42,427 nucleotides of DNA, taken from positions 1 through 42,427 of the forward strand of contig JAHFGX010000009.1 of assembly GCA_023247215.1 (NCBI GenBank), in the 5' to 3' direction. Positions 2,987 to 26,923 of the stretch are shown here, piece by piece. The position numbers and the translations under genes are program-made. This DNA is from Candidatus Omnitrophota bacterium (GTDB lineage Bacteria; Omnitrophota; Gorgyraeia; Aquiviventales; Aquiviventaceae). Below the pieces are notes generated by a model. The model saw nothing but the letters and a program-made list of their open reading frames with translations. It was not told where the DNA came from and made no database searches. Positions within the stretch are counted from its first letter, which is position 1. The number at the start of each line of letters is the position of its first letter.

Positions 2987-2993
2987 ACGCGGC

Positions 2994-3491
2994 ATGGCGG
3001 CGGATCACAGCTTCGACATCGTCTCCAAAATCAACCTGCAGGAATTGCGCAACGCCATCCAGCAGGCGCAGAAAGAGCTGGTCAACCGCTTTGACTTCAA
3101 AGGCTCCAGCGCCGGCGTGACGCTGGAGGAGGAGCCGTTGGGCCTGCGCCTGACCGCCGACCACGACGTCCAATTGGGCAGCGTCGTGGACGTGGTGAAG
3201 GGCAAGCTGGCCAAGCGCGGGGTGTCGTTGCAATCCTTCACGTGGGCCGCGATGGAGGCGATCCCCAGCGGGGCTGTCAAGCAGCATGCCGAGGGCTGCC
3301 AGGGCCTCTCCTCGGACACGGCCCGCGAGGTGGTGAAAGCGATCAAAGGGCTGGGGCTAAAGGTGCAGCCGCGCATCGAAGGCGAGACCGTGCGGGTGTC
3401 CGGCAAGCAGATTGACGAGCTCCAAGCGGTGGTCCAGATGCTCAACGCGCGGGACTTCGGGGTGCCGATTCAAGTGGAGAATTACCGCTGA
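2994..3491 (+). CDS. yajQ: YajQ family nucleotide-binding protein
   Basis: A 165-residue protein matching YajQ along its whole usual length (~160 residues). Diagnostic stretches are SFDIVSKINLQELRNAIQQA at the N-terminus, NRFDFKGSSAGV, and the C-terminal VRVSGKQIDELQAVVQML with ARDFGVPIQVENYR. The family forms two ferredoxin-like domains. Some members bind cyclic di-GMP and act with a LysR-type regulator, while others bind tRNA or nucleotides, so the ligand here is uncertain. A cyclic-di-GMP-type riboswitch lies 6.5 kb downstream, so a second nucleotide-binding gene in the region is notable but may be chance. It starts 7 nt after the preceding stop. Confidence 0.92.
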   Translation: MAADHSFDIVSKINLQELRNAIQQAQKELVNRFDFKGSSAGVTLEEEPLGLRLTADHDVQLGSVVDVVKGKLAKRGVSLQSFTWAAMEAIPSGAVKQHAEGCQGLSSDTAREVVKAIKGLGLKVQPRIEGETVRVSGKQIDELQAVVQMLNARDFGVPIQVENYR

Positions 3492-3573
3492 GTGTGCCAT
3501 CATAGAAGGGTTCGGACGGCCGGGGAAGTCGGCAGGCCCGGCCGGAGGGAAAGCGCTCCACAAGGAGGTGGGC

Positions 3574-3813
3574 ATGACGGGCGGAAAGTATTGCGCGATC
3601 TGCAAGATCGTGGGCCTCTTGGTCGGCCTGGGCGCGCTCAACTGGGGGGCAGTCGGCCTGTTTCAGGTGGACGTGGTTGAGCGGTTCCTCGGCAGCATGA
3701 CCACCGGCGCGCGAGTCGTCTACACGCTCATCGGCGTGGCAGGGCTGCTCAAGCTCATCTCCTGTGTGAAGTGCTGTCCTTGCCAAAAGGGCGGTTGCGA
3801 GACGAAGAAGTAA
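3574..3813 (+). CDS. DUF378 family small membrane protein
   Basis: A 79-residue protein. The start at ATG 3574 is fixed by AAGGAGG six bases upstream; an open frame runs further up but has no ribosome site. The family signature is the run LGALNWGAVGLF followed by a second hydrophobic helix (VVYTLIGVAGLLKLIS), giving two membrane segments. Cysteines cluster at both ends: CAIC near the N-terminus and CVKCCPCQKGGC at the C-terminus. The C-terminal cluster is richer than in the usual short member and could bind metal, though that is inference. The function of the family is unknown. Confidence 0.85.
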   Translation: MTGGKYCAICKIVGLLVGLGALNWGAVGLFQVDVVERFLGSMTTGARVVYTLIGVAGLLKLISCVKCCPCQKGGCETKK

Positions 3814-11909: not shown

Positions 11910-12557
11910 ATGCGCGCGCTCGTACCGTGGCTCATCGTGGCGGCGATCTGGATCAGCGCCGGGGGCGTGGTCGCCGGATTCCTGATGCCGTGGGTTACCC
12001 TCAAGACCAACCGCGAGGTGGTCGGCGCCGTCGACAGCGTGATGGAGGCGACCCCCTTCGCCGGGCTGGTGAAGGATGCCAGCAAACGGGTTGGGCACGT
12101 CGTCATCCACGTCAAGCGCGGGACGGACACGATCACCGCCGAGCTGCCGGACCTGTCGACGCTGCCCTCCACCATCCGCGGAGCGGATATCCCGGTACTG
12201 GCCAACCGAGATGATGTGAAGGGGGCTGCGGCGCTGGCGGAGCTGCTGACCGGGCAGCGCACGTGGGGACGGGTGGGGGTGAACAGCTACGCGATCTACT
12301 TGGTGCCGGGGCTCGCCCTCGTGTTCGCCCTGACCGTGACATTCGTCCACCGGCCGTGGGTGGGCGGGCTCATCGGCGCGACGTGTGTGGCGATTGCGGG
12401 GATCTGGTGGTGGAAGCTGGCCACCGTGAAGCTCGAGACGGCGATGGTGGCGGTGCTGCTGGAGCCGGGGCTGTGGCTCTCCTGCGGGTCTTACGCGGGG
12501 CTGGGAGCCGCCTCGCTGGCCCGCGCCCTCACGCTGCGCGCTCCTCCTCGCGATTGA
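11910..12557 (+). CDS. Hypothetical membrane protein, about four TM segments
   Basis: A 215-residue protein of unrecognised family, starting at the base after the previous stop (TAA then ATG). One hydrophobic helix at residues ~5-30 (LIVAAIWISAGGVVAGFLM) is followed by a polar region of ~95 residues. That region contains a beta-like run (GHVVIHVKRGTDTITAELPDLSTLP) and probably faces the periplasm. Three more hydrophobic segments follow (YLVPGLALVFALTVTF, VGGLIGATCVAIAGIWWW, and a last one near CGSYAGLGAASLA). The layout suggests a single extracytoplasmic domain held by a membrane bundle. No function can be assigned. It is probably co-transcribed with the TSUP and epimerase genes, unless the repeat hairpin between them stops transcription. 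Confidence 0.8.
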   Translation: MRALVPWLIVAAIWISAGGVVAGFLMPWVTLKTNREVVGAVDSVMEATPFAGLVKDASKRVGHVVIHVKRGTDTITAELPDLSTLPSTIRGADIPVLANRDDVKGAAALAELLTGQRTWGRVGVNSYAIYLVPGLALVFALTVTFVHRPWVGGLIGATCVAIAGIWWWKLATVKLETAMVAVLLEPGLWLSCGSYAGLGAASLARALTLRAPPRD

Positions 12558-12586
12558 TTGACGCAGGCCGGCGCGGCACCTATAAT
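12558..12586 (+). promoter_or_regulatory. Promoter of tRNA-Phe
   Basis: TTGACG (12558-12563), a 17-nt spacer and a perfect TATAAT (12581-12586) lie 17 nt before the mature tRNA end. This is one of the best sigma-70 matches in the window. Confidence 0.8.
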
Positions 12587-12603
12587 GAGTTCCCCTTTCT
12601 GAC

Positions 12604-12676
12604 GCCGGGATAGCTCAGGTAGTAGAGCGGAGGTCTGAAAAGCCTCGCGTCCCCAGTGCAAGTCTGGGTCCCGGCG
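12604..12676 (+). tRNA. tRNA-Phe (GAA), atypical elbow
   Basis: A full cloverleaf. Acceptor GCCGGGA pairs with TCCCGGC, D stem GCTC with GAGC, anticodon stem GAGGT with GCCTC, and T stem CCCAG with CTGGG. The 7-nt loop CTGAAAA gives anticodon GAA. CCA is not encoded. Oddities: position 18 is A instead of G, position 55 is G instead of T (T-loop TGCAAGT), and the discriminator is G, where Phe tRNAs normally have A. The G19-C56 contact and T8-A14 are kept. Confidence 0.85.
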
Positions 12677-12807
12677 CCTTCTTTTGAATCATTCTGGTTT
12701 ACTTTAATTAAAATTATGAAATATTTTTTCTTGACACGTTGTGGCGCTTTTTGAAATAATCCACAGCCTTGTTTTCTTTTTCACCTCGTATGGGTTATGG
12801 GAGGTCC
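12677..12807 (+). promoter_or_regulatory. AT-rich promoter region of the giant-protein operon
   Basis: This stretch is much richer in A and T than its surroundings. It holds TTGACA (12731-12736), an 18-nt spacer and AATAAT (12755-12760), a good sigma-70 promoter with an A/T tract (TTTAATTAAAATTATGAAAT) just upstream that resembles an UP element. The likely ribosome site of the next gene is GGGAGG at 12799-12804. Confidence 0.7.
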
Positions 12808-14391
12808 ATGGACTCGCTGAGGCATCCGGTGGCTGGGTGGGCCGAGGTGGCGGGGGTTAGTGCGATCGTGCTTGTGGGGCTGGCTGCGCCAGCCGCACGC
12901 GCTGAAGTCTCCTCGCCGCACTCAGCTAGTTCGGTTCAGGAACAGACGCCAAACATCCTGGACCTGGCCATCCCCTCCAGCCTCGGCTACATCGTTGAAA
13001 CCTTTCCACCCGCTTCTCGCCAGCCTCAACCGCCCGTCCTGATCCACATCCAAGAAGCCCATACGGACTACGACGCCCAACAGCACCTCGCCGGCATCCT
13101 CCAACAGCTCGCGGAACGCTACGGCGTGAAGCTCGTGCTGGTGGAAGGCGGCGAGGGGGATGTTGGCTTGGCGTACCTGCGCCGCTACGGCCCTCCGGAG
13201 AATCGCAAGGTGGTCGCCGAGAAGTACCTGAAGGCCGGCCTGATCAGCGGGGAAGAATACCTGGACATCGTCTCCGATCGGCCGCTGGTGCTCTGGGGGG
13301 TGGAGCAGAAGGACCTCTACCAGAAGCACGTGCAGGCCTTCCTGGACGTCGAGCCGGTCCAGGCCTCCCTCAAACCGGTGCTGGCCGCCGTGCGCGCATC
13401 GCTGGAGTTGTTGAAGCCTCACCTGGCCGATCCCGCCCTCATGGAGTTGGAGACTGGCATCACGGCGTTTGAACAGGGCCAGTTGCGTTTGTCCGGCTAT
13501 GTGGACGCCCTCACCAAGCTGGCAGCCCGCCAAGGCATCCGGATCACGGACAGCACCTACCCTCACCTGGCTCAGTTCCTCGCGTTGCGGCAGCTTGAGG
13601 CGGACACGCGTCTTGAGGCAGTCCAGCAGGAGCAGCAAGCGCTGCTGAGCGAGTTACGCCTCCGCGTGTCAGCCGAGGAGATCGCCCGGCTCCTCGCCGC
13701 GGCTCAGCGGATGAAGACCGACCGCGCCGCGGTCGGAGAATTTTACGGAGGCCTCCAGCGCGCGGCGGGGACTGCCGGGGTGCAGTTGGAGCCGTATCCG
13801 AACCTGTCCCGTTACCTGCGCTATCTCGCGGAGAAAACCCGGTTTCGCCCCTCGGCGCTGGCCGGCGAGTTGGAGCAGCTGGCCGGCCTCCTTCGCAAGA
13901 GCCTGGCCGCCAGCTCCCGAAGCCAGCAGCTCTACGCCATGGCCGATCAACTGATGCTGATGGAACGGTTGCAGGAGCTGCGGCTCTCGCCTACCGAGTA
14001 TCAACGGCTTCAGGCCATGCCCCTGGACGGGATGTGCGCCGCGTGGGTCGGCTTCTTCAGCGAGCACTTGCCGGCCCAGGGCCTGCCTTCGCTGGACCTC
14101 GGGCTGGATCGCTGCGCGCCGGTTGAAGCCCAATGGCGCGGGCTCCTTCGCTTCTACGAAGCGGCGCAGGCGCGCGATGAGGCGCTGGTCACCAACGCCA
14201 TCGCCAAGCTGCACGAAAGCGGGGAGCGCGTGGCCGTCTTGATCACGGGCGGCTTCCATTCCCCGGCGATCGCGAAGCGGCTGAAAGAACAGGGGATGGG
14301 CTTGGTGGTCGTGGCGACCAAGGTCGGGCACGACGCCGATCCCCAACATTATCATGACATCCTGAAGTTGAAAAACGGTCATGGGAATTAA
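12808..14391 (+). CDS. Exported TraB/EreA/ChaN-like protein, partner of the giant protein
   Basis: A 527-residue protein starting at ATG 12808 behind GGGAGG; spacing is short, and ATG 12790 is an alternative. A signal peptide with hydrophobic core VSAIVLVGLAAPAA ends at ARA|EV near residue 32. A strand, VLIHIQEAHTDYDAQ, carries His80, Glu83 and His85. LVLVEGGEGDV follows, then LVLWGVEQKDLY, and near the end a strand VLITGGFHSP with His484. This order of a HxxE/H loop, a Glu loop and a late Gly-Gly-x-His resembles the EreA/ChaN/TraB hydrolase superfamily, but the match is remote and made by eye. The middle is mostly helical. Its stop is 13 nt before the giant gene, which it surely accompanies in one operon. 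Confidence 0.75.
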   Translation: MDSLRHPVAGWAEVAGVSAIVLVGLAAPAARAEVSSPHSASSVQEQTPNILDLAIPSSLGYIVETFPPASRQPQPPVLIHIQEAHTDYDAQQHLAGILQQLAERYGVKLVLVEGGEGDVGLAYLRRYGPPENRKVVAEKYLKAGLISGEEYLDIVSDRPLVLWGVEQKDLYQKHVQAFLDVEPVQASLKPVLAAVRASLELLKPHLADPALMELETGITAFEQGQLRLSGYVDALTKLAARQGIRITDSTYPHLAQFLALRQLEADTRLEAVQQEQQALLSELRLRVSAEEIARLLAAAQRMKTDRAAVGEFYGGLQRAAGTAGVQLEPYPNLSRYLRYLAEKTRFRPSALAGELEQLAGLLRKSLAASSRSQQLYAMADQLMLMERLQELRLSPTEYQRLQAMPLDGMCAAWVGFFSEHLPAQGLPSLDLGLDRCAPVEAQWRGLLRFYEAAQARDEALVTNAIAKLHESGERVAVLITGGFHSPAIAKRLKEQGMGLVVVATKVGHDADPQHYHDILKLKNGHGN

Positions 14392-14404
14392 GAAGGAACA
14401 CGTC

Positions 14405-17400
14405 ATGACACGGTGGACCAAACCCGTTGCCGTTGTGCTCGCCTGGACGATGGGGTTCGGCCCCGCGACCCCGGCCGTCTTTGCGTACCAGACGACCCTG
14501 CGCCCGGCCGCCACCGATGGCAGTGGGGTCGAACGGGAGCTCCGTGGGGACCGTGGCTGGGCCGTCGGAGCCGGCGTCCCCAGCCAACCCGTCACCCCAG
14601 TTCCACCGGACGAGCTGGAACGGCGCAAGGCCGACGCGCGCCAGCAGGCCGAGGCGCTGCCCAACACGGTGCAGCAGGCCGCCTACACCCTGCCGCCGGG
14701 GCGCGTGCCGCAGTCGGCGATCCCGCTCCTTGAGCAAGCACTCTCCCAGGCGGTAACCGAGGGACGCCTGCGGCAATTTCAGGTGACCCCGGCTGCCGAC
14801 GGCTCCGTTCAGGTCGAGGTGAGCTATGTCGCGCCGGAACCCAGCGCCGAGGTGGCTCGGCTGGTCGTCGAGGCGGTCGCGCAGGCGCTGTCGGCGGACC
14901 GCGGAGACGCTGAGGCGATCAGCAAGGGCACGGCGGGCATCACCGAGCTCAGCGCGCAAGCAGCCATTAATCGGCAACGCCGGCCCCTGTCCGAGCGGCC
15001 GGATATCGCGCCGTTCATTGAAGAAGCGCGGCAGTTCTGGCGGGAACGCGCAGGCGACCTCGCCGGCCTGACGCTGCCGGCGCCGGCCACGGCCGACGAC
15101 CTGATCGAACGTCTCAGCCACGTCGAGCTGGTCAGAAGCGATCCGCAGTACGGGCCGGCGATCTTCAGCAGCCTCGCCGATTCGCGGGGCCTGCCCCGGT
15201 TAGGCTACCAGGCCGGGACGATTGATCGAGTGCGCCGGACCGTCCTGGTCTCCGAAGATTTCGCCGATTTCCTGCTCCCGCTCATTCAGGCTGACGATTC
15301 CCTCCAGCATTCCTCCCTGCAGTCGCTCGCCGCGTATGTCGGCGAAGAGGCGTTCTCCACGTTTGTGGAGGGATTGCTGCGAAGCGTCGTTGGGGATCGG
15401 GCGTCCACCCCGCGCGAGCGGACCCAGTTCCTCAAGTTGGGCCTCACGCGGCTCCTCATTGCCGCGGCCAGCCATGACGCGTACGAGGCCCACGCCTACC
15501 CGTTCTCCATCGAACGCGCTCATCAGGGCGCCCAACGGATTGAGCAGGTGGTCGTCGGGCCAAGCGCCTTCACCCCGTCCCATCAATCCGACAGCCTGCT
15601 CGACGACCTGTTGAAGTTCATCTTTCTCCAGCACGCAGGCTTGGTGCCGGATATCCACGCGGCGAATCTCCTCATTGACTGGAGGCCCACGGAAGCCATC
15701 AGCCAGCAGCAGGACGGACGCCGGTTCGTCAGCTATCAGATCCGGCACGACTCCGTGGCGCCGGAGGATCTGCGCGCCCTCATCGGCCAGGACGTGGGTG
15801 CGGCCGACCGCCTCACGCTGGTCGCGGTGGACGGCACGCCCCTGGCGGTGCTCTACGAGCCGGGAGCGCCCGGCAGCGCGGCTCGCCCAATCCCGCTGCT
15901 CAATGATGCGCGAGCCTTCGAAGAGGCCTGGAGCGAATACCTGCGGGTCAGCGTCCCTGTGTCCGAGCGGCGCATCGTGGAGTTCCACGACGTCGGCCGG
16001 GGCGATGTCCACATCGCGGGAGGCAAAGGCGCCAATCTGGGCGAGATGATCCGGCGGGGAGAGCCCGTGCCGCCCGGCTCCATCGTCACGGCCTTCGCCT
16101 ACCGGCAGTTTCTCACGACCAACCCCCAGCTCAAAACCGCGATCCTGGAGCTCATGAAAGACTTAGATGCGACGGACTCGGCCCAGACCGAACACGCCTC
16201 CCGCAAGATCGAAGAGCTGATCCTCCAAACCCCGATCTCCCCGGAGCTCGACCGCGAGCTGCGCGCGGCCTACCGGAGTTTGAGCGAGCGCCTGGGGCAT
16301 CCCAATCACGACCTCAAGGTGGCCATGCGCAGCTCCTCGACGAAGGAAGACCTGGCCACGGCCGCCTACGCCGGGCAGTTGGAAACCTACCTGAACATCC
16401 AGGGGCAAGACGCCGTCGTGGAGACGCTGCCGCGGGACTGGGCGAGCCTCTATACGAAGCGCGTCATCGAGTTCCGCGACGTCCAGATTCTGGCGCAGTT
16501 TGCGCAAGAGGCGGATCAGGCCGCGCTCGCCGAGATGAGCGCGGCCTTGCACCAGGAGCCGGGGTTTGTCCAGCTCGCGAAGTTCCTGGGGGATGTGCGC
16601 GAGGACCCGAAGACCAAAACCTCCCCGCAGTCCAGCTACGCGAGGCTGCGCAACTGGCTTCGCCAGCACCCGGATCGCTACCCCGGGGCCCTGGAGACAC
16701 TCGAGGCGATTGCCGCGGAGTTTATTGACCCGGAGCATGTGGAAATCGCCGTGGTCATGCAGGAACAGATCGAGAGCCAGCGCTCCTTCGTCCTGTTCGG
16801 CGTGGATCCGGCGACGGGGTGGACCGGGCGCCACTTCGGCGGCAACGCCCGGATCTTGAGCATCGCGGTCAACTACGGGATCGGCGAATCCATCGTGCAG
16901 GGGCTGGTGACGCCCGACCTCTTCACGGTCCTGGCCTCTACGGACGACGCCGGCAGCCGGCGCTACCGCATCCTCCGGCGGACCCTCGGGCCCAAGACGA
17001 TCCAGACCCGGTACCTCGAACGGCTGTTTGCCGACGTCCCAACTTTCAGCGAGAACGACCTGCGCATCGTGGCGGACGCCGTCAAAGCCCTGGCTCCGCT
17101 CGTTGAGGAGGCCCGCCACCGGGATGCCGAGGCGCGCAGGGCGGGCGGCGAAGGCCTGAACCTCTTCGAAGAGGTGCGGGCGGCGGCGGAGGAGGCGCAC
17201 ACGCTCTCCGGGTTGGACGCGGCCTACCGGGCGCGGATCTCCGAATCCACCAGCGTTCAAGACCGGCTCGCGGATCCGGCGACGGACCTGGTGCGCGTGG
17301 CGTATGAACTGTTCCGAGTGGCGGAGATCAAAGAACTGGAAGAGCTTCCCACGGAGTCCGAGCTGCGCGAGCAGGGCATCCGCGTGGGCCTGAAGGAGTT

Positions 17401-20400
17401 CGCCACGCTGGCCCGCATCGCCAGGGCGCTCAACGAACGTCGCCGGACCGCCGAAACCCTGATCTTTGACGCCGACCTGCGCGACCAATTCGCCGCCACC
17501 GAGCAGGAAATCCTGGAGTTGGCCCGGATCGCCGATGGCAGCATCGAGGCCTACGGGGACGTGCGGGACATGGAAGGGGCGATGGACCGGCCGGTCGGGG
17601 ACCCGGATAATCGCAGCTTCATCGTCCAATCACGGCCCTGGGCGTCGGCGACGGATCAGGATAACCCCGCGCTCTACCGCGACGAACTGACCCGGATTGC
17701 CGTGGAACAGCTCGTCATCGAGGGCCGCGCCACCCGCCCGCGCTCCGATACCGAGCCGCTTCAAGGCCCAGGCATCACGCTGCTGCTCAAAGGCATCCCC
17801 ACCGGGATGGCGTTTTCCGGCCGGCTCGTCGTCTTGGATGAGACCTCCGGGGTGCCCTACGAAGACCAGATCGAGCCGGGCGACATCATCTTTGCGGAGG
17901 AAACCACCCCCCAGCATTTCCGCGCCATGCAGAAGTCCAATGGGGTGATCACCCTGCGAGGAAGCAACCTGTCCCATGCCGCCATCGAGTCGCGCGGGCT
18001 GGGGATCTCCACCGTCGTGGGCGTGGAGACCTATCTGCGGGAGCTTCGGGAAACGGATCCGGCCCATTACGACGCCGTGATGGCGGCGCTTCGGACCGGC
18101 ACCACGGTCACCGTGGACGGCAACAACGGATTCGTCTACCTGGACGAGCTGCCCACCGCGCGCGAGCGGATCGAGGTGGACATCTCGCGGGCGAACAAGA
18201 ACACGCTGCGACGGAAAGTCGGATTCATCCTCGCCAACGCGCTGACGGCGGCCCGCGCGACCAAGCTGGCCCAGATCAACTGGCTTTACGCCATCAGCCT
18301 GCTCCGCGCCGAGTTCAGCTTCGGCTACATCGGCATCCACCCGCGCGCGATCATCGCGTACGACATGATGCGCCTGCTCGACGCGGAGCGCGACGGCACG
18401 ATCACGGACGCCGAGCGCGGCGCCCTGGCCCACTACCGCGAGGCGGAATCCTGGGCGTCCCTCGAGGGGGACATCACCGTGTTGCAGGCCCATCCGAACG
18501 TGGTCCGTCAGATCCAGACCCGCATCAAGGGCTTCACGCCGGCAGGCTGGACGCGGCCCTCCGCCATCCGCTACTTCCGCGAGATGCACTATGCGACGAT
18601 CGGCCAGATCGCGGCGTCGTTCGGAAAGGATCAGGTCAAGGTCTACCGGTTCCTCGACTTCAAGCTGCGGGAGCTCAAGAACCTGATCGGCGGCGACCTG
18701 TTCTTTGAAACCGCCGAGCGCTCCTCCATGATCGGCTATCGCGGGCAGACCTACCTGAACGCCCCGGAGAACCTGGCCGGCTTCGAGCTGGAGGTCGAGG
18801 TGCTGGCCGACCTGATCGAGGACGGCGTGCAGATTGATCCCATGCTGGCGTTCGTGCGCAACCCGGCCGAGCTGCAGCAGAGCCTGGAGTTCGTGCTGGC
18901 GATCTTCCGGCGCCGAGGAATCATGCCGCGGAACCTCGGCATGATGTCGGAGATCCCGGCCAACGCCTCGCAGGTCCAGGAGTTTGCGCAGCTCCTCTCG
19001 ACGGCGGCGCAGCAGTACGGGTTCCAGTGGTATTTCTCGTTCGGCACCAACGACCTCACGCAGGGGATCCTCCACGCCGGACGGGACGAGCCCGCTCTCC
19101 ACAGCTTGAACCTGGGCAAGACGGTGTCGGCCTACACCGCGGCCAGCCGCTTTGTCACCAAAGATGCAGACGGGAATTACATCCTCCGGGTCTACGATGA
19201 ATCCCGTCCCGGCGTGATTCGCGCCATCAGCACCGTGTCCAACGCCAGCCGGCAGTACCACGGCAAGACCGGGCTCTGCGGCGAGGCGCTCAACCGCTTG
19301 GCGCTCTCGAACCCGGAGGGGGCGGCGCAGATCGCCGCGCTGCTGGATTCCGGCGGCACCGGGGTGCGCGAGTTCCTTAATTCGGCGAAGGTGTTCTACG
19401 ATGCGGAGCTTCGGCTGGGCATGGTGCCGTCGGCCGTCGCCAGCCGCGCCACCATCCTGGCCGAAGGCACGTCAACCGCCAGCCAAGGGGCGGCGGCGCG
19501 CACACTCGTCCTGATCAATACGCTCGAGGACCTGAAGATCAAGCGCGTCTATCCGGGCGACATCGTGGTGTTCCGGGGCAGCGTCAGCGGCGTTGACCTC
19601 GGCGATCCGGAGATCCGGCGGGCCATGAGGGCGGCCAGCGGCGTCGTGACGGAGCTGGACTCCCCTGAGTCGGAGCATGCCCAGCTCGCCGCGGCGCTCA
19701 AGATCCCAGCCTTGCTGGGCGTCCAGCGGCTCTTTAGCCAGGTGGCCGATCTGGAAACGGCCACGGTGGATTTCCAGCGGGGCAAGGTCTATCGGGGCAC
19801 GCTCAGTCTGGATGAAACGGATCCGACGCAAGAAGGCCTGTTGCGCGTTCCCGAGTGGACCCCGGATCACGAGCTGTCGCGGCTCGAGGTGCGCCGGACT
19901 AGCGCCGGGCCGGTGTACCAGGCGCTCGGCATCCATCCGTTAGTGTTCTTCGACGCAGATGACGGGACGCTGGCCGACGCCGAGCTGGCGGGGCGGATCG
20001 CCGCGCTGCGGGGCGGCCAGCCCGGCGCGGAGGCGGCGCTGGAGCGGCGGCTGTATGACGCCTACCGGTCCTATGCGCAGCGCAACGGGCAGGTGACGAC
20101 CGTCATCGAGAATGACAGCCTCACCTCGGACGACTACCGCGCGTTGGCCGGCGGCGCGCGCTACGAGGACGAGGAGATCAATCCGCCGCTGGGGCTGACC
20201 CAGTTCTTGCGGGTCCTGCGGAGCCGCCCGGACGGCCGGGGATTTGAGGACCTGCTGCGCCTGCAGTTGCGCGTGGTCAACCGGCTCCATCGCGAAGGCC
20301 ACCGCGTGGCGTTTGCGATCAACGGCTTGCGCGTCGAGGAAGAAATGGCGGAGGCGGCCCGCATCATCCAGAGCGAAGTGCCTGACCGCGGCTTCCCTGT

Positions 20401-23400
20401 CGGCTGGAAGATCACCACGGCCCCCAACAACTACCTGGTGATTGACGAGCTCATCCGCATCGCCGAGGCGGGGCTGGGCCGGCCGCTCGACTTCATCTTC
20501 GTGGACCAACAGGAGTTGGCCTTCGCCGAGCAGTTGGCCGACGCCGACAACCCCTTGGTCCGGGCGGCCATCAGCGAGGTCCAGCTTCAAGAAGCGATCT
20601 ACGCGCCGCTGCGAGTCATCCGCGATGCCGCGAAGCGCCACCAGATCGCGTTTGCAGTGGATGAGCATCCCCTGCTTTTGGATCGCCCCTTGCCCGCCGC
20701 TCCGGCGCCGGTGCCCGGGAGCGAGACCATTCCTGACGAGGCTGTGCGGGCGTGGGCGCAGAATCAGGCCGAGTTCTTGGGAGCCTCCAGCATCGAGGTG
20801 GTGGATGGTTCCGACTGGGGGCATCTCATCCGGGAAGCGGTCCAGGCAAGCCAGGAGCGACACGACGGCAAGTTCATTGATCTGGGCAATGGCACCTACC
20901 TGGCCCGGTCGCATCCCCTGGATACGGCGCGGACCGAATCGCGCACGTACGTGGCGACCGATGATGAAGCGGATAAAGGGTTCATCGGCCAAGCGGGGCT
21001 GAACAACTGGCGTCGGGCCAGCGGGCCGGACGGGTTGGAGCAGAAGATGAACTCGCTGCAACACGGCGCCGCCGCAGGGCAGAAGCTGTACGTCATCCCG
21101 TACTTGATGGGGCCGGCTCGCTCCCCATTGGAGCAGTGGCTGGGCGGGGCGTACGTCACGCCGAGCCGCTATGTCGCCTTGCAGAATATCATCATGTCGC
21201 GCCTCGGCCAGCCGGCATGGGAGGCCATCGAACGGTCCGGAACGTTTGTCCAGGGCCGCCACACCACTGGAAACCTCGAGACGCTCAACCGCGGCGAGAC
21301 CGGCCCGGAGGATGACGAGCGGCATTTCGTCACCTTTGCCAGGGAACGCACGATCGAGCACCACGGATCCGAATACGGCGGCAACGCGCTCTTCGGCAAG
21401 ATCCCCCATGGGCTGCGCCTGGCCTCGTTCGACGCCCACCAGAACGGGTGGCTCGTCGGGCAGGGAGGGTTGTTCGGTTTCAGGGACACGCAGACCGGCG
21501 AGGTCAAATACTTCGCCGTGTTCCTGCCGAGCGGCTCAGGCAAGACGAACCTGGTCATGACGCAGTCCTCGCCCGATGACCGCTACCAGATCGAGACCTT
21601 GGGCGATGACATCGTCTATTTCCGTCGAGAGGGTGACCAGGTCTTCGCGATGAACCCGGAAAACGGCATCTTCGGCATCGCGCCGGGGACCAACGTCAAG
21701 ACCAACCCAAGCGCCATGGCGGCCATCGGCCCGGGCAGCGATACCATCTTCACCAACGTCGCCCTCAACACGCAGACGAACGAGGTGTGGTGGGAGGACA
21801 AGACCGATGAGTACCCGGCCGATCTGGACCACTGGGAGGATTGGCGGGGCATCCCGATTCTGGATTCCCGACGCGTCGAGCTGGCGGTCCGGGCGATGTC
21901 TCAGCGGGCCCCAGCCGTGCAGGAGATCCTCCGAACGTTTGCCACCGAGCTCGTGAACACGCCCCAGAGGGCGGCGAGCGACAACACGTCCCAGAAGCCG
22001 ATGAGCGACCGACTCAGGCAGCGGGCGGTGGAGCAGCTCTCCGTGCTGCCGGACGTCACGCGGGCGCAGGCGGCCGCCTGGGTGGATGCGGTGCGCACGC
22101 AGCTCCTCTGGGCGCAGCCGAACAGCCGGTTCACGACGCGCCTGACGAACCTCCCCACCGTGTCTCCGGAGTGGGACAACCCCCAGGGCGTGCCGATCAG
22201 CGGGATCATCTTCGGCGGGCGGGTCAGCTCGCCTCGCGAACCGCTCCTCCGGGAGCTCCGTTCGGTGTATGAAGGGATCTACGACGGCGCCGTGATGGGG
22301 GTGGAGACGACCGCCGCCATTGAAGGGGGCACGCAGTTCCGCTCCGACCCGATGGCCATGATGGGATTCTTCGGTCCTCGGGAGGATCAGTATTTGGAAG
22401 ACTGGCAGCAGATGTTCACGGGAACCGATGTGAGGTTCTTCCATGTCAACTGGTTCGGCAGGGGTCCGGACGGCCAGTTTCTCTGGCCCGGCTACGGCGA
22501 GAACAAGCGTCCCCTCCAGCTGATGGTTGATCGGATGGAAGGTCGAGGGGACGTCGTCGAGACGCCCGTCGGCAATTATCCCACGCCGGCGTCGCTGCAC
22601 TTGGAAGGGCTGAACATCCCGCCAGCGAACGTCGCCCGCTTGACGACCTACGACCCGGCGGAATGGACGGCCGAGATGGTCCGGCGCACCGACTTTTTTG
22701 CGCAGTTCGGAGACCACCTGCCGGACTGGATGTGGCGGCAGCATGAGCGCGCGGTGGCGGGGGTCATGGCGCCGCAAATCTTTCCTCTTCTGATGGCATC
22801 TCCCGAGGGCCGTCGCGTCGAGACCGCGGACGAGATCGCGCCTCTCCTTCAGGAGCTGTTCCGCGCAGACCGGCGGCTGCTGACCGCCGAAGCGCCGGTG
22901 ATCGCGCAGCAGTTGTCCGAGCGCTGGGACGAGCTTCGGGCCGCGGCCGCTCAACGCCAGGCCGCTGATGTCGGGCTCCTGGCGTATCCCCGATTGGGTC
23001 AAACGGATCGCGCGCTCATTAACAGGATCACCGACCGGCCGGAAGCGCGGGAGATCTTGGCGCAGGTCTATCTCGGATTGCGCGAGCGATCCGAAGCGGT
23101 GGAAGCGCTCGCAGCCCTGGGAATTGATCCCGCGCTGGCTGAGGCCTGGGTCGTACAGATTTCACAAGCGACGGCGATGGTCGGCTCTGCCCGCGGGCCA
23201 GCCGGCCCAGGCGCTGTGGCGGAGGTTCGGCCGGAGCTGCGCGCCGTCGCCCCGGAGCTCTTCGGCGACCACACGGTCAACGGGCACCCCCTCAACACCG
23301 AGGCGGTCATCGCGCTGCTGGCTGAGGACCCGGCCATCGGCCAGGCGATCCCCAAGGTCCTGACCGCCCGCCGGGAGCTGCTGGAATCACCGGCCCCGGT

Positions 23401-26400
23401 CAGAGAGAAGCACGGCTGGGTGCCGTGGGGCCAGCAATTCACGGACGCCGATGGGACCACCCGAACGTTCCGCGACATCGTCCTTGGGCAGATCCAGAAT
23501 TTCCTCGGCATCGAGAGCGAGCTGGCCTGGCGGCTCAACGACGACGTGCCCGTGCCGGATGATGCCAATCCGCTCAAGAATCCAGGACTGGAGCTGACCG
23601 GCCCGTGGAATCCGCTGGACATGGCCATGAACCAGTTGAACGCCGGCGTGCCCTCGATCATGCCGGATGAAGAAGACGCTTCGCCGCCTTGGTTCCGGCC
23701 CTCCGGCGTGCCCGCGGACCAGCCCATCGGCGTCATGCTGGGGCGGCGCAACATGCGGCAGATTCTGGCTGGCGAGTGGGGGGACGGCACGGCGCCACGG
23801 CGCTACGAGGTGGTCAAGCGAGGCCGGGATCGGGTCTACACGATTGGCAAAGCGCGCCGTGACTGGCCGACGATGTTTCCCCGCCTGCCCGGCATCCACC
23901 TGCGCGATCCCTACGTCACGGTCCACGGCAAACCGGCCCCCGCCATCACCATCTCCGCCGCCATCCACCTGCTCAACAACTACGGCTCCCTGGTGCGGGA
24001 AGAGTCCGGCGTCTACCAGTACATCCCCAAGACGCAAACCCCCCAGGAAGCGCTCATCGTGGAGCATCTGCTTCGCAAGCTGGAAGACCTGGCAGGCCTC
24101 CCGCACGGCAGCATCAAGGTCGCCATGCTGTATGAAGAAGGCGTCCAGGGGCGCTACCTGCCGGCGATCGCCTGGGTGTTGCGGAATCGGCTCGTGAAGT
24201 GGAGCGACGGCCGCTGGGACTACCTGGGCAGCCTCTTGGAGATGTGGAAGGACGAAGCGGTCTTTCCGGATCCTCAAACGATCGGCATGGCCTCTCCCAG
24301 CATGATGGCCTATCAGCGCTACAGCGCGCTGATGATGCTGATGATGGGCATGAAGCACGGCGAACTGACCAACGGCGGCAAGGTCGGCGGCATGGCGGCC
24401 GTGATGATCTACCAGCCGGATGACCCCTACGGCCGCTCGCGCTACAACCCGATCGCCCTTCGCGCGATGACCATTGATAAGCGGCGGGAACGAGCCACGC
24501 ACCTCATCTTCGTTCCAGAGGAACCGTGGGAAGAGGGTCGGACTGTCACGCTGGAGGAGATCCTCTCCGGAGCGGTCACGGGGCGGCTGTACGACGGCTT
24601 GCGGCAAAGCTGGGTGGCCAGCCCTGATCCGGCCTACGTCGCCGCCGGCAACGCCGAATTGGTGGCCGAGCTTACCGAGTTACAGGCCAGGTTCTCCGCT
24701 CCCGAGGAGACGGTCGAGGTGAACGGCCGACGCATCCCAACGGTGAACAGCGGGCTGACCACCGCGGAGCGCGAGCTGTTCCAGCGGCGCGGCCTGATCA
24801 ACCAGGAGGGCAAGATTACGCCCTGGGTGGTCACGCGGGAGATGGTGGACGCGCCGGAAAAAATCTTCACCCAGGAGCGGTGGGAGGCGATCTACGGCGT
24901 TCCGCAAGGCGACATCACCATCGAACGCATCCAGAACGCCTTCTTCCAGGGGGCCCAATACGGCTTCCAGATCCTCAACGGCAATTACGCCGCGGCCGTT
25001 GACGACTACGAAGCCATTCCTGGGGATTCCGCCACCGGCTTCCGGCGGTTCATGAACGACCTGGCGACCTACCGGATTTACGTCAACCAGCTCTGGGTGC
25101 TCTTCCATCACGGCGCCGCCATCACGCAAGACGGTTGGCTCAAAGCCCCGAAACTCACCGAGGACGGGGTAATCCCCGGCGAGAACGCCGTCTTCCTGAG
25201 AGCCGGCACCACCATGACGCCGGAGGTCTTCCAACAGCTCTGGGACCTGCACAACCAGTGGACGGAGGCGTTCTTCAAGGAGCAGGACCGGCTGGCCGAG
25301 CAGGACCCCACCCGCGCGCCGCGCTTTGATCGGTCCAAAGCGCCCATCATCATGGACATTTTGAAGCGGCAGATTCTAGCGCCCCGCTTCATCCAGCACA
25401 GCGCCCGCGTCCTGTTCTCGGTCGCTGAAGCCGATGACGCCACGCGCGAGCAGTACTTGCGGGCGATCTTCGCGCCCACGCGCGAGGCGGTGGTGGCCGA
25501 GGTGGCCGCCGGCACGCTGCCCGCCGAGGCCCTTGAGGTGCACGACCACGTCTACGACATCTTCCCGCCGCAAGAGCGCGCGACGGTCCAGGACGGTGGC
25601 GCCACAGGCAGTACGGCGTATGGGCGCTTGGGCGCGACCGACCGGCGATTGATTAACGGAATTGTCGAGTCACCCCAGGCGAGGGAGATCCTGGCTGGAT
25701 TCTACCTTGGGCTGCACGCGCACGAGGAGGCGGTGGAGGGGCTGGTCGCGCTGGGGATTGACGCTGACTCGGCGGAGGCCTACGTGACCCAGGTCGCTCG
25801 CCCGACGGCGGTGCTCGATTCCGCTCGCGGCAGGTCGCCAGGCGACAAAAGCCCCGTGACGCGTGAGGAAGTAAACGGCGTCATTCAGTCGAACATCCTT
25901 AGTCTGGCGGACCTGCCGTATCGCGAGCAGGTGAAAGCGCTGGGCATTACCGCCGCGGCTGAGGAGGATGCGTTGGCACTTCAGCGCGGCGTGCTGGTGC
26001 CGCAGTTCAGCCATGCCCTGAACCATGTAGTGAGCCCGGCGATGGCGGAGCACGCAGTGGACGTGTCCGATCCCACGTGGATCGTCGTGCACTCCTCGGT
26101 GTTCAGCCAGGCGCCGGATGCGCCGATCCTGTATCAGCGCCTGCGCGAGGAGGTGGAGCGGGTGCGTGGAACGAGTGAGCGCGCCATCCGATTCGCCTTG
26201 GCCGTGGAAGGGACGGAGAGCCTGGCGGATGCCGAGCAGCGCGCCGCAGTCCTGTTTCCAGCCGTTCCCGGAACGGCGAGTGACCTTGCCGCGCTCTCGA
26301 AAGACAGTTTTGATCTGATCGTGCCGTCGGTGGGCGATGCGGACGCCCTCTTGGGGATGCTGGAAGCCTCCATGCCGGAGAGTCGTGTCGGCAGCGTGAT

Positions 26401-26716
26401 CGGGCCGGCCGCGTGGGCGAGGGAGCTGAAGAAACAGGCTGGTGACGACGAGCGGATCGCCGTCGTCGCCTTCGAGCCGGCACCGGACGCCACCACGGTC
26501 GCCGCCGGGTCCACTGCGCTTATCGCCGGGGTGGAAGCCGCCGTGTCCGGCGGGCAGCTCGATCCCGCCGTCGCGGCCAAGCTCACGGACCTGCAGCAGG
26601 ACGGCGGCGTGTTGGCCGCCATGCCATTGGGCTTCGTGGACGAAGAGGCGGAGGCGGTCGTGCGCGAGTACCGAACCCGCCAGGCCACCCTGCGGGCGAC
26701 GTCCGCCAGCCAGTAG
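14405..26716 (+). CDS. 4103-residue exported multidomain protein: PEP synthase / PEPCK / malate synthase
   Basis: The start at ATG 14405 lies 7 nt after AAGGA; an ATG at 14381 is less likely. A signal peptide ends at VFA|YQ (residue 27). A ~500-residue unassigned region follows. Then comes a complete PEP synthase: GGKGANLG at 539, Arg642 in MRSSSTKEDL, Arg1077 in IVQSRP, phosphohistidine His1191 in LSHAAI, and a barrel with LLRAEF, EIPANA, FGTNDLTQ and Cys1625. A second swivel (His1758) and barrel lack the cysteine. From ~2110 to ~2780 is GTP-type PEP carboxykinase with P-loop SGSGKTN (2376-2382). Residues 2861-2931 are a repeat. About 3000 to 3730 is malate synthase (Glu3244, Asp3272, Asp3552). 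A second repeat fills 3739-3809. A ~294-residue C-terminal domain is unrecognised. How cofactors could reach an exported enzyme is unexplained. Confidence 0.95.
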   Translation: MTRWTKPVAVVLAWTMGFGPATPAVFAYQTTLRPAATDGSGVERELRGDRGWAVGAGVPSQPVTPVPPDELERRKADARQQAEALPNTVQQAAYTLPPGRVPQSAIPLLEQALSQAVTEGRLRQFQVTPAADGSVQVEVSYVAPEPSAEVARLVVEAVAQALSADRGDAEAISKGTAGITELSAQAAINRQRRPLSERPDIAPFIEEARQFWRERAGDLAGLTLPAPATADDLIERLSHVELVRSDPQYGPAIFSSLADSRGLPRLGYQAGTIDRVRRTVLVSEDFADFLLPLIQADDSLQHSSLQSLAAYVGEEAFSTFVEGLLRSVVGDRASTPRERTQFLKLGLTRLLIAAASHDAYEAHAYPFSIERAHQGAQRIEQVVVGPSAFTPSHQSDSLLDDLLKFIFLQHAGLVPDIHAANLLIDWRPTEAISQQQDGRRFVSYQIRHDSVAPEDLRALIGQDVGAADRLTLVAVDGTPLAVLYEPGAPGSAARPIPLLNDARAFEEAWSEYLRVSVPVSERRIVEFHDVGRGDVHIAGGKGANLGEMIRRGEPVPPGSIVTAFAYRQFLTTNPQLKTAILELMKDLDATDSAQTEHASRKIEELILQTPISPELDRELRAAYRSLSERLGHPNHDLKVAMRSSSTKEDLATAAYAGQLETYLNIQGQDAVVETLPRDWASLYTKRVIEFRDVQILAQFAQEADQAALAEMSAALHQEPGFVQLAKFLGDVREDPKTKTSPQSSYARLRNWLRQHPDRYPGALETLEAIAAEFIDPEHVEIAVVMQEQIESQRSFVLFGVDPATGWTGRHFGGNARILSIAVNYGIGESIVQGLVTPDLFTVLASTDDAGSRRYRILRRTLGPKTIQTRYLERLFADVPTFSENDLRIVADAVKALAPLVEEARHRDAEARRAGGEGLNLFEEVRAAAEEAHTLSGLDAAYRARISESTSVQDRLADPATDLVRVAYELFRVAEIKELEELPTESELREQGIRVGLKEFATLARIARALNERRRTAETLIFDADLRDQFAATEQEILELARIADGSIEAYGDVRDMEGAMDRPVGDPDNRSFIVQSRPWASATDQDNPALYRDELTRIAVEQLVIEGRATRPRSDTEPLQGPGITLLLKGIPTGMAFSGRLVVLDETSGVPYEDQIEPGDIIFAEETTPQHFRAMQKSNGVITLRGSNLSHAAIESRGLGISTVVGVETYLRELRETDPAHYDAVMAALRTGTTVTVDGNNGFVYLDELPTARERIEVDISRANKNTLRRKVGFILANALTAARATKLAQINWLYAISLLRAEFSFGYIGIHPRAIIAYDMMRLLDAERDGTITDAERGALAHYREAESWASLEGDITVLQAHPNVVRQIQTRIKGFTPAGWTRPSAIRYFREMHYATIGQIAASFGKDQVKVYRFLDFKLRELKNLIGGDLFFETAERSSMIGYRGQTYLNAPENLAGFELEVEVLADLIEDGVQIDPMLAFVRNPAELQQSLEFVLAIFRRRGIMPRNLGMMSEIPANASQVQEFAQLLSTAAQQYGFQWYFSFGTNDLTQGILHAGRDEPALHSLNLGKTVSAYTAASRFVTKDADGNYILRVYDESRPGVIRAISTVSNASRQYHGKTGLCGEALNRLALSNPEGAAQIAALLDSGGTGVREFLNSAKVFYDAELRLGMVPSAVASRATILAEGTSTASQGAAARTLVLINTLEDLKIKRVYPGDIVVFRGSVSGVDLGDPEIRRAMRAASGVVTELDSPESEHAQLAAALKIPALLGVQRLFSQVADLETATVDFQRGKVYRGTLSLDETDPTQEGLLRVPEWTPDHELSRLEVRRTSAGPVYQALGIHPLVFFDADDGTLADAELAGRIAALRGGQPGAEAALERRLYDAYRSYAQRNGQVTTVIENDSLTSDDYRALAGGARYEDEEINPPLGLTQFLRVLRSRPDGRGFEDLLRLQLRVVNRLHREGHRVAFAINGLRVEEEMAEAARIIQSEVPDRGFPVGWKITTAPNNYLVIDELIRIAEAGLGRPLDFIFVDQQELAFAEQLADADNPLVRAAISEVQLQEAIYAPLRVIRDAAKRHQIAFAVDEHPLLLDRPLPAAPAPVPGSETIPDEAVRAWAQNQAEFLGASSIEVVDGSDWGHLIREAVQASQERHDGKFIDLGNGTYLARSHPLDTARTESRTYVATDDEADKGFIGQAGLNNWRRASGPDGLEQKMNSLQHGAAAGQKLYVIPYLMGPARSPLEQWLGGAYVTPSRYVALQNIIMSRLGQPAWEAIERSGTFVQGRHTTGNLETLNRGETGPEDDERHFVTFARERTIEHHGSEYGGNALFGKIPHGLRLASFDAHQNGWLVGQGGLFGFRDTQTGEVKYFAVFLPSGSGKTNLVMTQSSPDDRYQIETLGDDIVYFRREGDQVFAMNPENGIFGIAPGTNVKTNPSAMAAIGPGSDTIFTNVALNTQTNEVWWEDKTDEYPADLDHWEDWRGIPILDSRRVELAVRAMSQRAPAVQEILRTFATELVNTPQRAASDNTSQKPMSDRLRQRAVEQLSVLPDVTRAQAAAWVDAVRTQLLWAQPNSRFTTRLTNLPTVSPEWDNPQGVPISGIIFGGRVSSPREPLLRELRSVYEGIYDGAVMGVETTAAIEGGTQFRSDPMAMMGFFGPREDQYLEDWQQMFTGTDVRFFHVNWFGRGPDGQFLWPGYGENKRPLQLMVDRMEGRGDVVETPVGNYPTPASLHLEGLNIPPANVARLTTYDPAEWTAEMVRRTDFFAQFGDHLPDWMWRQHERAVAGVMAPQIFPLLMASPEGRRVETADEIAPLLQELFRADRRLLTAEAPVIAQQLSERWDELRAAAAQRQAADVGLLAYPRLGQTDRALINRITDRPEAREILAQVYLGLRERSEAVEALAALGIDPALAEAWVVQISQATAMVGSARGPAGPGAVAEVRPELRAVAPELFGDHTVNGHPLNTEAVIALLAEDPAIGQAIPKVLTARRELLESPAPVREKHGWVPWGQQFTDADGTTRTFRDIVLGQIQNFLGIESELAWRLNDDVPVPDDANPLKNPGLELTGPWNPLDMAMNQLNAGVPSIMPDEEDASPPWFRPSGVPADQPIGVMLGRRNMRQILAGEWGDGTAPRRYEVVKRGRDRVYTIGKARRDWPTMFPRLPGIHLRDPYVTVHGKPAPAITISAAIHLLNNYGSLVREESGVYQYIPKTQTPQEALIVEHLLRKLEDLAGLPHGSIKVAMLYEEGVQGRYLPAIAWVLRNRLVKWSDGRWDYLGSLLEMWKDEAVFPDPQTIGMASPSMMAYQRYSALMMLMMGMKHGELTNGGKVGGMAAVMIYQPDDPYGRSRYNPIALRAMTIDKRRERATHLIFVPEEPWEEGRTVTLEEILSGAVTGRLYDGLRQSWVASPDPAYVAAGNAELVAELTELQARFSAPEETVEVNGRRIPTVNSGLTTAERELFQRRGLINQEGKITPWVVTREMVDAPEKIFTQERWEAIYGVPQGDITIERIQNAFFQGAQYGFQILNGNYAAAVDDYEAIPGDSATGFRRFMNDLATYRIYVNQLWVLFHHGAAITQDGWLKAPKLTEDGVIPGENAVFLRAGTTMTPEVFQQLWDLHNQWTEAFFKEQDRLAEQDPTRAPRFDRSKAPIIMDILKRQILAPRFIQHSARVLFSVAEADDATREQYLRAIFAPTREAVVAEVAAGTLPAEALEVHDHVYDIFPPQERATVQDGGATGSTAYGRLGATDRRLINGIVESPQAREILAGFYLGLHAHEEAVEGLVALGIDADSAEAYVTQVARPTAVLDSARGRSPGDKSPVTREEVNGVIQSNILSLADLPYREQVKALGITAAAEEDALALQRGVLVPQFSHALNHVVSPAMAEHAVDVSDPTWIVVHSSVFSQAPDAPILYQRLREEVERVRGTSERAIRFALAVEGTESLADAEQRAAVLFPAVPGTASDLAALSKDSFDLIVPSVGDADALLGMLEASMPESRVGSVIGPAAWARELKKQAGDDERIAVVAFEPAPDATTVAAGSTALIAGVEAAVSGGQLDPAVAAKLTDLQQDGGVLAAMPLGFVDEEAEAVVREYRTRQATLRATSASQ
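22985..23197 (+). repeat. 71-residue protein repeat, copy 1 (after the PEPCK module)
   Basis: Encodes residues 2861-2931 of the giant protein, from YPRLGQTDRALIN to VGSARG. It aligns without gaps to the copy at 25619-25831, with about 43 of 71 residues identical. Predicted to be helical, with the core AREILAxxYLGL and ALGID. Confidence 0.85.
25619..25831 (+). repeat. 71-residue protein repeat, copy 2 (after the malate synthase module)
   Basis: Encodes residues 3739-3809, from YGRLGATDRRLIN to LDSARG. It is the same length as copy 1 and shares its helical core and its SARG end. It separates the malate synthase module from the C-terminal domain. Confidence 0.85.
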
Positions 26717-26851: not shown

Positions 26852-26923
26852 GCCGGCGTAGCTCAGAGGCAGAGCAGCTGTTTCGTAAACAGCGGGTCGG
26901 AGGTTCGATTCCTCTCGCCGGCT
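26852..26923 (+). tRNA. tRNA-Thr (CGT)
   Basis: A full cloverleaf of 72 nt. Acceptor GCCGGCG pairs with CGCCGGC, anticodon stem GCTGT with ACAGC, and the loop TTCGTAA gives anticodon CGT, which reads ACG. The T-loop is the normal TTCGATT. CCA is not encoded. The last 18-19 bases recur downstream (see the repeat entry). Confidence 0.95.

Follow-up and report, generated by a model that had tools for sequence, protein, structure and literature searches.

The window analysed here, a 42,427-nucleotide stretch of contig JAHFGX010000009.1 (assembly GCA_023247215.1, a Candidatus Omnitrophota bacterium), holds a single + strand reading frame at 14405-26716 that encodes an exported-looking chain of 4103 residues built largely of central-carbon enzymes, directly preceded by the gene of a putative hydrolase. 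The chain runs from ATG 14405 to a stop that ends at 26716; the frame is also open from ATG 14381, which would give 4111 residues. ATG 14405 is likely the better start, because AAGAAGGAAC lies just before it, at 14390-14399, and the upstream gene has its stop at 14391. Residue numbers below refer to the 4111-residue version, in which the likely start is residue 9. The single-base composition of the window predicts about 95 stops over 4111 codons, whereas none is present (P ~3e-42), and the GC content at third codon positions lies between 0.81 and 0.92 in 11/11 blocks of 1200 bases, the last of them partial; the frame thus looks intact and coding along its full length. Could an assembly error have fused separate genes, as the original prediction had allowed? 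The source is a metagenome bin in 57 contigs (92% complete), and its assembly was judged from sequence; the uniform coding signal, the linker repeats between modules and the homologous chains carried by other genomes nevertheless make such an artefact very improbable.

The chain consists, in order, of a signal peptide, an LR stretch, an N-terminal region, PEP (phosphoenolpyruvate) synthase, GTP-dependent PEP carboxykinase (GTP-PEPCK), a linker, malate synthase, a second linker and a C-terminal domain, with borders that we set from Pfam, NCBIfam, BLAST and alignments, and with all features on the + strand. The Sec-type signal peptide MTRWTKPVAVVLAWTMGFGPATPAVFA (residues 9-35; 14405-14485, its cleavage site being our own reading) is followed by the LR (14498-14503, within YQTTLRPAAT) and by an N-terminal region without Pfam match that reaches to about residue 530 (14486-15970) and found no BLAST match in the 10 other sequences compared. 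The PEP synthase, which extends to about residue 2110, opens with an ATP-grasp domain (15971-17710; PPDK_N at 545-908 and a second stretch near 1024-1094) and continues with a phosphohistidine swivel domain (LSHAAI, 17870-18130; PF00391, PEP-utilizers, at 1164-1250 plus a second matched stretch) and a PEP-binding barrel (GLCGEA, 18587-19288; PF02896, PEP-utilizers_C, at 1403-1636), whose Cys codon lies at 19277-19279. There follow a second swivel-like domain (SEHAQL, 19451-19804), matched by the C-terminal part of NCBIfam PRK06354 at 1691-1808, and a 'barrel-2' region (19868-20680) that alignment finds in other exported PEP synthases and that may be a repeat of the PEP-binding barrel. The GTP-PEPCK module (residues 2115-2790; 20723-22750) is matched by PEPCK_N at 2125-2352 and by PEPCK_GTP in two stretches up to 2790 (E 2.6e-93), roughly 80 residues lying between them. 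Linker repeat A, of about 70 residues (22982-23200), has BLAST matches in the chains of genomes G020, G027 and G006; its second copy, A' (25616-25864, BLAST), stands behind the malate synthase module (residues ~2950-3740; 23231-25600; Pfam MS_TIM-barrel at 3165-3370, E 5.5e-22). The chain closes with an alpha/beta domain (25859-26713) that by alignment is common to exported chains, and whose AlphaFold2 (AF2) model (pLDDT 69.5) has no structural match in the PDB at E <= 0.001. No transmembrane (TM)-type hydropathy segment was found along the chain, the signal segment itself staying below the TM-type cutoff. Pfam and NCBIfam therefore agree with the original prediction that one frame holds PEP synthase, PEPCK and malate synthase: the domain search that it proposed matched PPDK_N, PEP-utilizers, PEP-utilizers_C, PEPCK_N, PEPCK_GTP and MS_TIM-barrel, and the outcome it had named as fatal, a failure to match PEPCK or malate synthase, did not occur.

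Are these modules still enzymes, then? Outside the upstream hydrolase, the catalytic roles of residues are presumed ones. The PEP synthase keeps all tested motifs (GGKGANLGEM, MRSSS, IVQSRP, the swivel His, the barrel Cys and the ND motif), and on its ATP-grasp motifs, swivel His, barrel Cys and ND motif it is, by sequence, a PEP synthase. The malate synthase barrel, with its catalytic Arg, Glu, Asp and Asp, is present; the module shares 56-60% identity with 26 stand-alone malate synthases, with tblastn matches spanning ~730 residues, and six tested positions, catalytic or neighbouring, are identical in 26/26 stand-alone and 2/2 exported copies (the scan gave 30 loci, of which these 26 were used; L080, L082 and L085 are incomplete and were left out, as was L081, JACQRC010000101.1, the reverse complement of which is identical to contig C84 of G027). 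The GTP-PEPCK module keeps the P-loop (GKT), the Asp pair, the Arg and NWF; two of its three Mn ligands are gone (K244I, H264Q) and D311 is kept, the ligands being, we take it, the Lys, His and Asp of rat PEPCK, whose numbering is used. All three persist in the PEPCK modules of G027 and G049 and in 17/17 aligned stand-alone enzymes, and the P-loop Cys is replaced by Ser in 3/3 exported modules, that of the window included. Apart from these Mn ligands, an extra swivel and barrel-like region, the export signal and the loss of cysteine, the chain shares domain order and motifs with PEP synthase (PDB 9dae, 2ols) and GTP-PEPCK (PDB 5i67, 4rcg). Because the active-site motifs are kept and the only Cys is a catalytic one, we favour catalysis in the PEP synthase and malate synthase modules, one or other of which is likely to be active; because two of three Mn ligands are missing, we do not favour it in the window PEPCK, which is probably weak or dead. 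The alternatives offered by the original prediction, metabolic assembly or structural use of enzyme folds, thus divide among the modules, the former gaining from the first two and the latter being possible for some.

Sec export was scored by a hydropathy rule for an n/h/c signal peptide, applied together with a control. The window chain passes, as do 36/36 chains, picked for an available N-terminus and hence not a random sample, against 12/77 stand-alone control enzymes (10/17 TIM, 1/17 PGK, 1/26 malate synthase, 0/17 PEPCK); a stricter rule passes 36/36 chains and 7/77 controls, all seven of them TIMs. LR follows the hydrophobic segment in 23/36 chains, compared with 6.1 expected from random internal windows; LPxPG is another post-signal motif, seen in 5/36, and both may be sorting signals. 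Export of the window chain, which the original prediction had suspected, is on these grounds very likely. The cysteine content points the same way. The 4111 residues contain one Cys, in the GLCGE motif of the PEP synthase active site, where ~42 would be expected from the 13 neighbouring open reading frames (ORFs) of the window (10.1 Cys per 1000; Poisson P 3e-17), and the 36 chains together contain 134 Cys in 84,972 residues, or 1.58 per 1000. Many of the Cys that remain in the relatives lie in the motifs GAPDH SCTTN, ICL KVCGH, PEPS GLCGQ and PPDK GxCGE. Stand-alone PEPCK relatives hold 8-15 Cys each (median 16.9 per 1000; 17 of 20 loci tried), and the exported PEPCK modules 0, 1 and 0; for malate synthase the count is uninformative, stand-alone copies having 0-6. 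A simple composition effect was considered and is disfavoured by the neighbouring ORFs and by the cytoplasmic PPDK of the same genome, with 18 Cys in 949 residues. That cysteines are lost while the catalytic one stays is what would be expected of a chain working in an oxidising space, and it favours a working enzyme set outside the cytoplasm. If the N-terminus were merely signal-like and the chain a cytoplasmic metabolic fusion, substrates and nucleotides would be at hand, and it would make sense that PEPCK and malate synthase were found in this genome only within the chain, its PGK, TIM and PPDK being ordinary separate genes. The signal-like N-termini of all 36 selected chains, the depletion of cysteine and the Cys-rich separate PPDK nevertheless render this explanation improbable.

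As judged from domains and motifs, the window chain is one member of a phylum-wide family of exported central-carbon enzyme chains. Signal-peptide-bearing chains of ~890-15,078 residues with PGK, GAPDH, TIM, FBA, FBPase, enolase, GPI, PGM, isocitrate lyase or PEP synthase occur in several Omnitrophota families; by Pfam, further enzyme chains are found in G009, G016, G020, G006, G010, G005, G154, G344, G337, G451, G297, G309, G272, G453 and G220, and also in G023 (in G016, G006, G220 and G453 the frame starts off the contig, so that the export signal falls outside the data). The 6090-residue chain of G049 combines PEP synthase, PALP, AMP-binding, aromatic amino acid lyase, hydroxyacid dehydrogenase, DUF4147/MOFRL (glycerate kinase type) and PEPCK, with a weak cysteine-dioxygenase match. 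G027, of the same order as the window's genome, encodes the hydrolase domain with malate synthase, isocitrate lyase and class I aldolase over two contigs that share nine residues at their ends and may encode one protein, and has a separate PEPCK chain. The 15,078-residue giant of G020 carries PGK, GPI, TIM, GlpX, GAPDH and PGM, the G016 frame TIM, enolase, iPGM, TIM, inositol-phosphatase and PGK, and the G009 chain FBA, ICL and GAPDH. Rows of genes are found as well: hydrolase, FBA/GlpX, PEPS and a chain with PGK, which in our reading also holds GAPDH (SCTSN), in G154; PEPS, GPI+TIM+PGK and enolase in G344. Family f4 encodes its enzymes as separate exported proteins, the genes standing in rows on one strand, for which reason a pathway role is easier to see there than in the giants. 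G016, G010 and G006 (PGK or TIM) and G005 and G023 (PPDK) have ordinary copies as well as exported ones. The exact module order of the window chain, which the original prediction held to be undescribed, recurs in none of the Pfam-scanned chains, although the chain is, as just seen, no solitary case. Among sampled genomes, some of them incomplete, 14/384 of the class have the C-terminal domain, at least 156/384 of the class the hydrolase, often within frames of thousands of residues, and 27/384 of the phylum the barrel-2 region, the last figure being an upper bound for exported PEP synthases, since the matches in G201, G212 and G223 lie in frames of 805-898 residues, the size of an ordinary PEP synthase (two of these were read and have 6 and 15 Cys). 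An open frame of 70,450 residues in G243 (contig C2, L166) also contains a barrel-2-like domain.

Most, though not all, checked active sites in the relatives persist at 29-60% identity. The Lys, Asp and AHR Arg of exported PGK are kept in 6/6 aligned of 10 copies, and the His and Glu of exported TIM in 5/5 aligned copies; the alignment left out the copies of G344, G297, G451 and G447, the first three of which were later read by eye. Genus g94, to which G344, G297 and G451 belong, shows dN/dS values of 0.12-0.21 over two exported chains in three genomes. Gene decay was entertained as another candidate; these ratios, and the fact that the sites of PEP synthase and malate synthase are intact, disfavour a decaying pseudogene, an explanation that we keep for single modules. 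Several domains are circularly permuted, all within exported or giant frames: in the PGK of G309 (L161), model part 303-413 precedes 26-298; in the TIM of G010 (L124) and G220 (L148), 67-265 or 71-262 comes ahead of 9-65 or 17-71, where the latter stretch in G220 is weak alone (independent E-value 1.1) but carries GNWKTYP; and in G337 (L160) Enolase_C comes before Enolase_N. The two permuted TIMs group together in a small tree, which suggests shared ancestry. In the PGK and TIM trees, the cytoplasmic copies, taken from family f1 only, form one clade apart from the exported copies (support 0.83 and 0.61).

The gene in front of the chain (12790-14391, its stop separated from the chain start by 13 bases) encodes a putative exported hydrolase of TIKI/ChaN/Ere type, as Pfam, AF2, Foldseek and motifs suggest. 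Its frame is open from TTG 12769, with ATG 12790 or 12808 as the likely start, and the protein begins with a hydrophobic N-terminal segment. The Pfam match to Cofac_haem_bdg (E 6.5e-4) falls under the curated cutoff of that profile, and no PDB sequence match was obtained at E <= 1; with an AF2 model of pLDDT 92.1, Foldseek placed Bcr135 and EreC best and HopBA1 and ChaN lower, the best E being 0.06 and none reaching 0.001. The (E/D)xH, the Glu at +28 and the late His are invariant in 29/29 sequences, and they make up the catalytic set of the TIKI/Ere group; one report gives the (E/D)xH and Glu +28 spacing for Bcr135 and for a Vibrio Ras/Rap1 endopeptidase (PMC6254334). The protein is thus like the TIKI/erythromycin esterase/ChaN superfamily in (E/D)xH, Glu at H+28 and late His, and its best Foldseek matches are members; it differs in that ~300 residues, helical for the most part, separate the early from the late core strands. 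In the window's genome (G000), G154, G297, G344, G010, G009, G021 (whose chain has no Pfam match) and G020, a hydrolase gene immediately precedes an exported chain; in G027 it is fused to the chain, and in G005, G337 and G309 it is near and on the same strand. That the hydrolase cleaves the chain is a guess from gene linkage and superfamily membership, and a doubtful one.

What might such chains do? The reading we favour, at a probability of about 0.48, is that Sec-exported chains provide Omnitrophota with gluconeogenic and glyoxylate-shunt enzymes outside the cytoplasm, some modules of the set being degenerate. The chain would be exported, perhaps trimmed by the upstream hydrolase, and its modules would act in the periplasm or in a prey- or host-facing space, the PEP synthase module converting pyruvate to PEP and the malate synthase module joining glyoxylate and acetyl-CoA to malate, with metabolites and nucleotides drawn from another cell; the PEPCK module would here be weak or dead, as would be some modules of the relatives. 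That the set amounts to a coherent extracytoplasmic pathway falls somewhat short of even odds. The fullest version, namely that Omnitrophota own extracytoplasmic gluconeogenesis and a glyoxylate shunt, built of polyproteins of up to 15,078 residues, purged of Cys except mainly at active sites, partly circularly permuted, matured by TIKI-like hydrolases and converting the metabolites of a partner or prey before or without uptake, is a tentative proposal, its chances being little better than one in three. Several observations weigh against an extracytoplasmic enzyme set. Exported PGK keeps the D.RI Arg in 3/5 and the SHxGRP Arg in 4/5 copies, and TIM Asn/Lys was scored as kept in 3/5, with the TIM of G020 perhaps misaligned. 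By eye, the exported PGKs of G344 (L162), G297 (L151) and G451 (L163) are without several canonical motifs, and the TIM body of G344 is without GHSE, NWK standing after it; from our reading of G344, the exported TIM of all three g94 genomes appears incomplete. Since the dN/dS values come from these very chains, with their altered PGK and TIM, and not from the window chain, they speak for constraint rather than catalysis. The single Cys of G016 and that of G021 sit in no motif known to us, and depletion is not universal, the G447 frame having 9.5 Cys per 1000 and that of G243 6.2 per 1000 in 6666 residues read. PGK and TIM of G020 were found only in its giant, so that, as far as the bin shows, the notion of a second set fails there, and G001, a genome of the same genus (78% complete), encodes an ordinary PEPCK but gave no match for malate synthase, C-terminal domain or hydrolase. 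Some giants carry DnaJ, CsrA, HTH or HEAT domains (CsrA in the frame of G016, L086; HTH in G006, L093; DnaJ in G020, L090). Periplasms, finally, are not known to hold ATP, GTP or acetyl-CoA. The weak points are where ATP, GTP, CoA and NAD would come from, the non-metabolic domains of some giants, the window PEPCK and the altered g94 modules; it was the g94 PGK and TIM that lowered our confidence from 0.52 to 0.48, slightly reduced that in the single steps and in the full pathway case and slightly raised that in a structural role.

Such a role would make the chain a surface or coat protein assembled from enzyme folds, the modules binding or giving structure without metabolic function. The altered active sites of the window PEPCK and of the g94 PGK and TIM, in chains that are constrained all the same, would fit, as would the tolerance of circular permutation and the non-enzymatic domains of some giants, and Seymour et al. 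2023 (PMC10066038) discuss an adhesin or coat role for giant ORFs of Omnitrophota. It is harder to see why a coat should retain as its one Cys the catalytic one, conserve, at 29-60% identity, the sites of malate synthase and most of those checked in PGK and TIM, or be encoded in pathway-coherent operons, and we regard this explanation as unlikely. Perhaps, then, the answer to the cofactor problem lies in delivery: chains secreted into a host or prey cell, where ATP, GTP, CoA and NAD are available, might alter its metabolism through their enzymes and regulators, and delivery into a partner cell would solve that problem. The regulatory and chaperone-type domains named above would suit such cargo, as would the catalytic-residue spacing that the upstream gene shares with a superfamily including proteases (PMC6254334) and the host-dependent or predatory life proposed for Omnitrophota (PMC10066038). 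MARTX-kind multi-effector polyproteins carry autoprocessing and translocation domains. The window chain shows neither of these, nor a pore domain, by Pfam, and so does not resemble the MARTX type; its C-terminal domain is without structural match, no secretion system is tied to the locus, none having been sought, and the f4 chains are separate operon genes. Delivered cargo therefore seems to us quite unlikely, and the extracytoplasmic enzyme set stays the favoured reading.

Bacteria are taken to run central carbon metabolism in the cytoplasm. Surface moonlighting and glycosomes are familiar cases of glycolytic enzymes located outside the cytosol, and AROM-type proteins join several pathway enzymes in one chain; the chains described here differ in being dedicated, signal-peptide-bearing and Cys-poor bacterial proteins, some with circularly permuted domains. 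Stand-alone malate synthases (747-947 residues; from metagenome-assembled genomes of Acidobacteria, Methylomirabilota, Rokuibacteriota and Deltaproteobacteria/Desulfobacterota) are too short for other modules. Closest in setting are the giant ORFs of Seymour et al. 2023 (PMC10066038), which come from the same phylum and are likewise very long, partly extracellular-looking proteins of small genomes, described there as poorly conserved and adhesive or predation-related. They exceed 20 kb, many with TM helices or adhesion domains and few annotated domains (PMC10066038), whereas the window chain, at 12.3 kb, is below that size, has no TM-type segment and consists largely of central-carbon enzymes; the frames of G016 and G020 do exceed 20 kb. 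We found no account of exported central-metabolism chains in the open-licence literature, preprints and most subscription journals lying outside the scope of the search, and it is on this limited search that we consider them new. If the reading is true, an exported central-carbon set would mean either that these bacteria have a metabolic compartment beyond the cytoplasm or that they act metabolically on another cell. The chains offer concrete content for part of the unexplained Omnitrophota giant ORFs, and the natural circular permutants of TIM, PGK and enolase can be assayed directly.

As to the surroundings of the gene pair, synteny between the window and G001 is confined to matches of ~28-44 bases, and of the 43 DNA repeat families, the 20 listed are short and no more than 86% alike. 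On contig C11 (2-5050, L224) the window's genome has another exported-looking frame, at least 1683 residues long and running off the contig end, that carries the hydrolase domain. After an AT-rich stretch, a sigma-70-like promoter, TTGACA-18-AATAAT (12731-12760; 11/12 matches, a consensus match only), precedes the hydrolase gene, and 12400-14600 contains 2 promoter-like sites against a shuffle mean of 0.2. The pair of hydrolase and chain genes lies between tRNA-Phe (12604-12678) and tRNA-Thr (26852-26923), and, bounded in this way, might resemble an inserted island.

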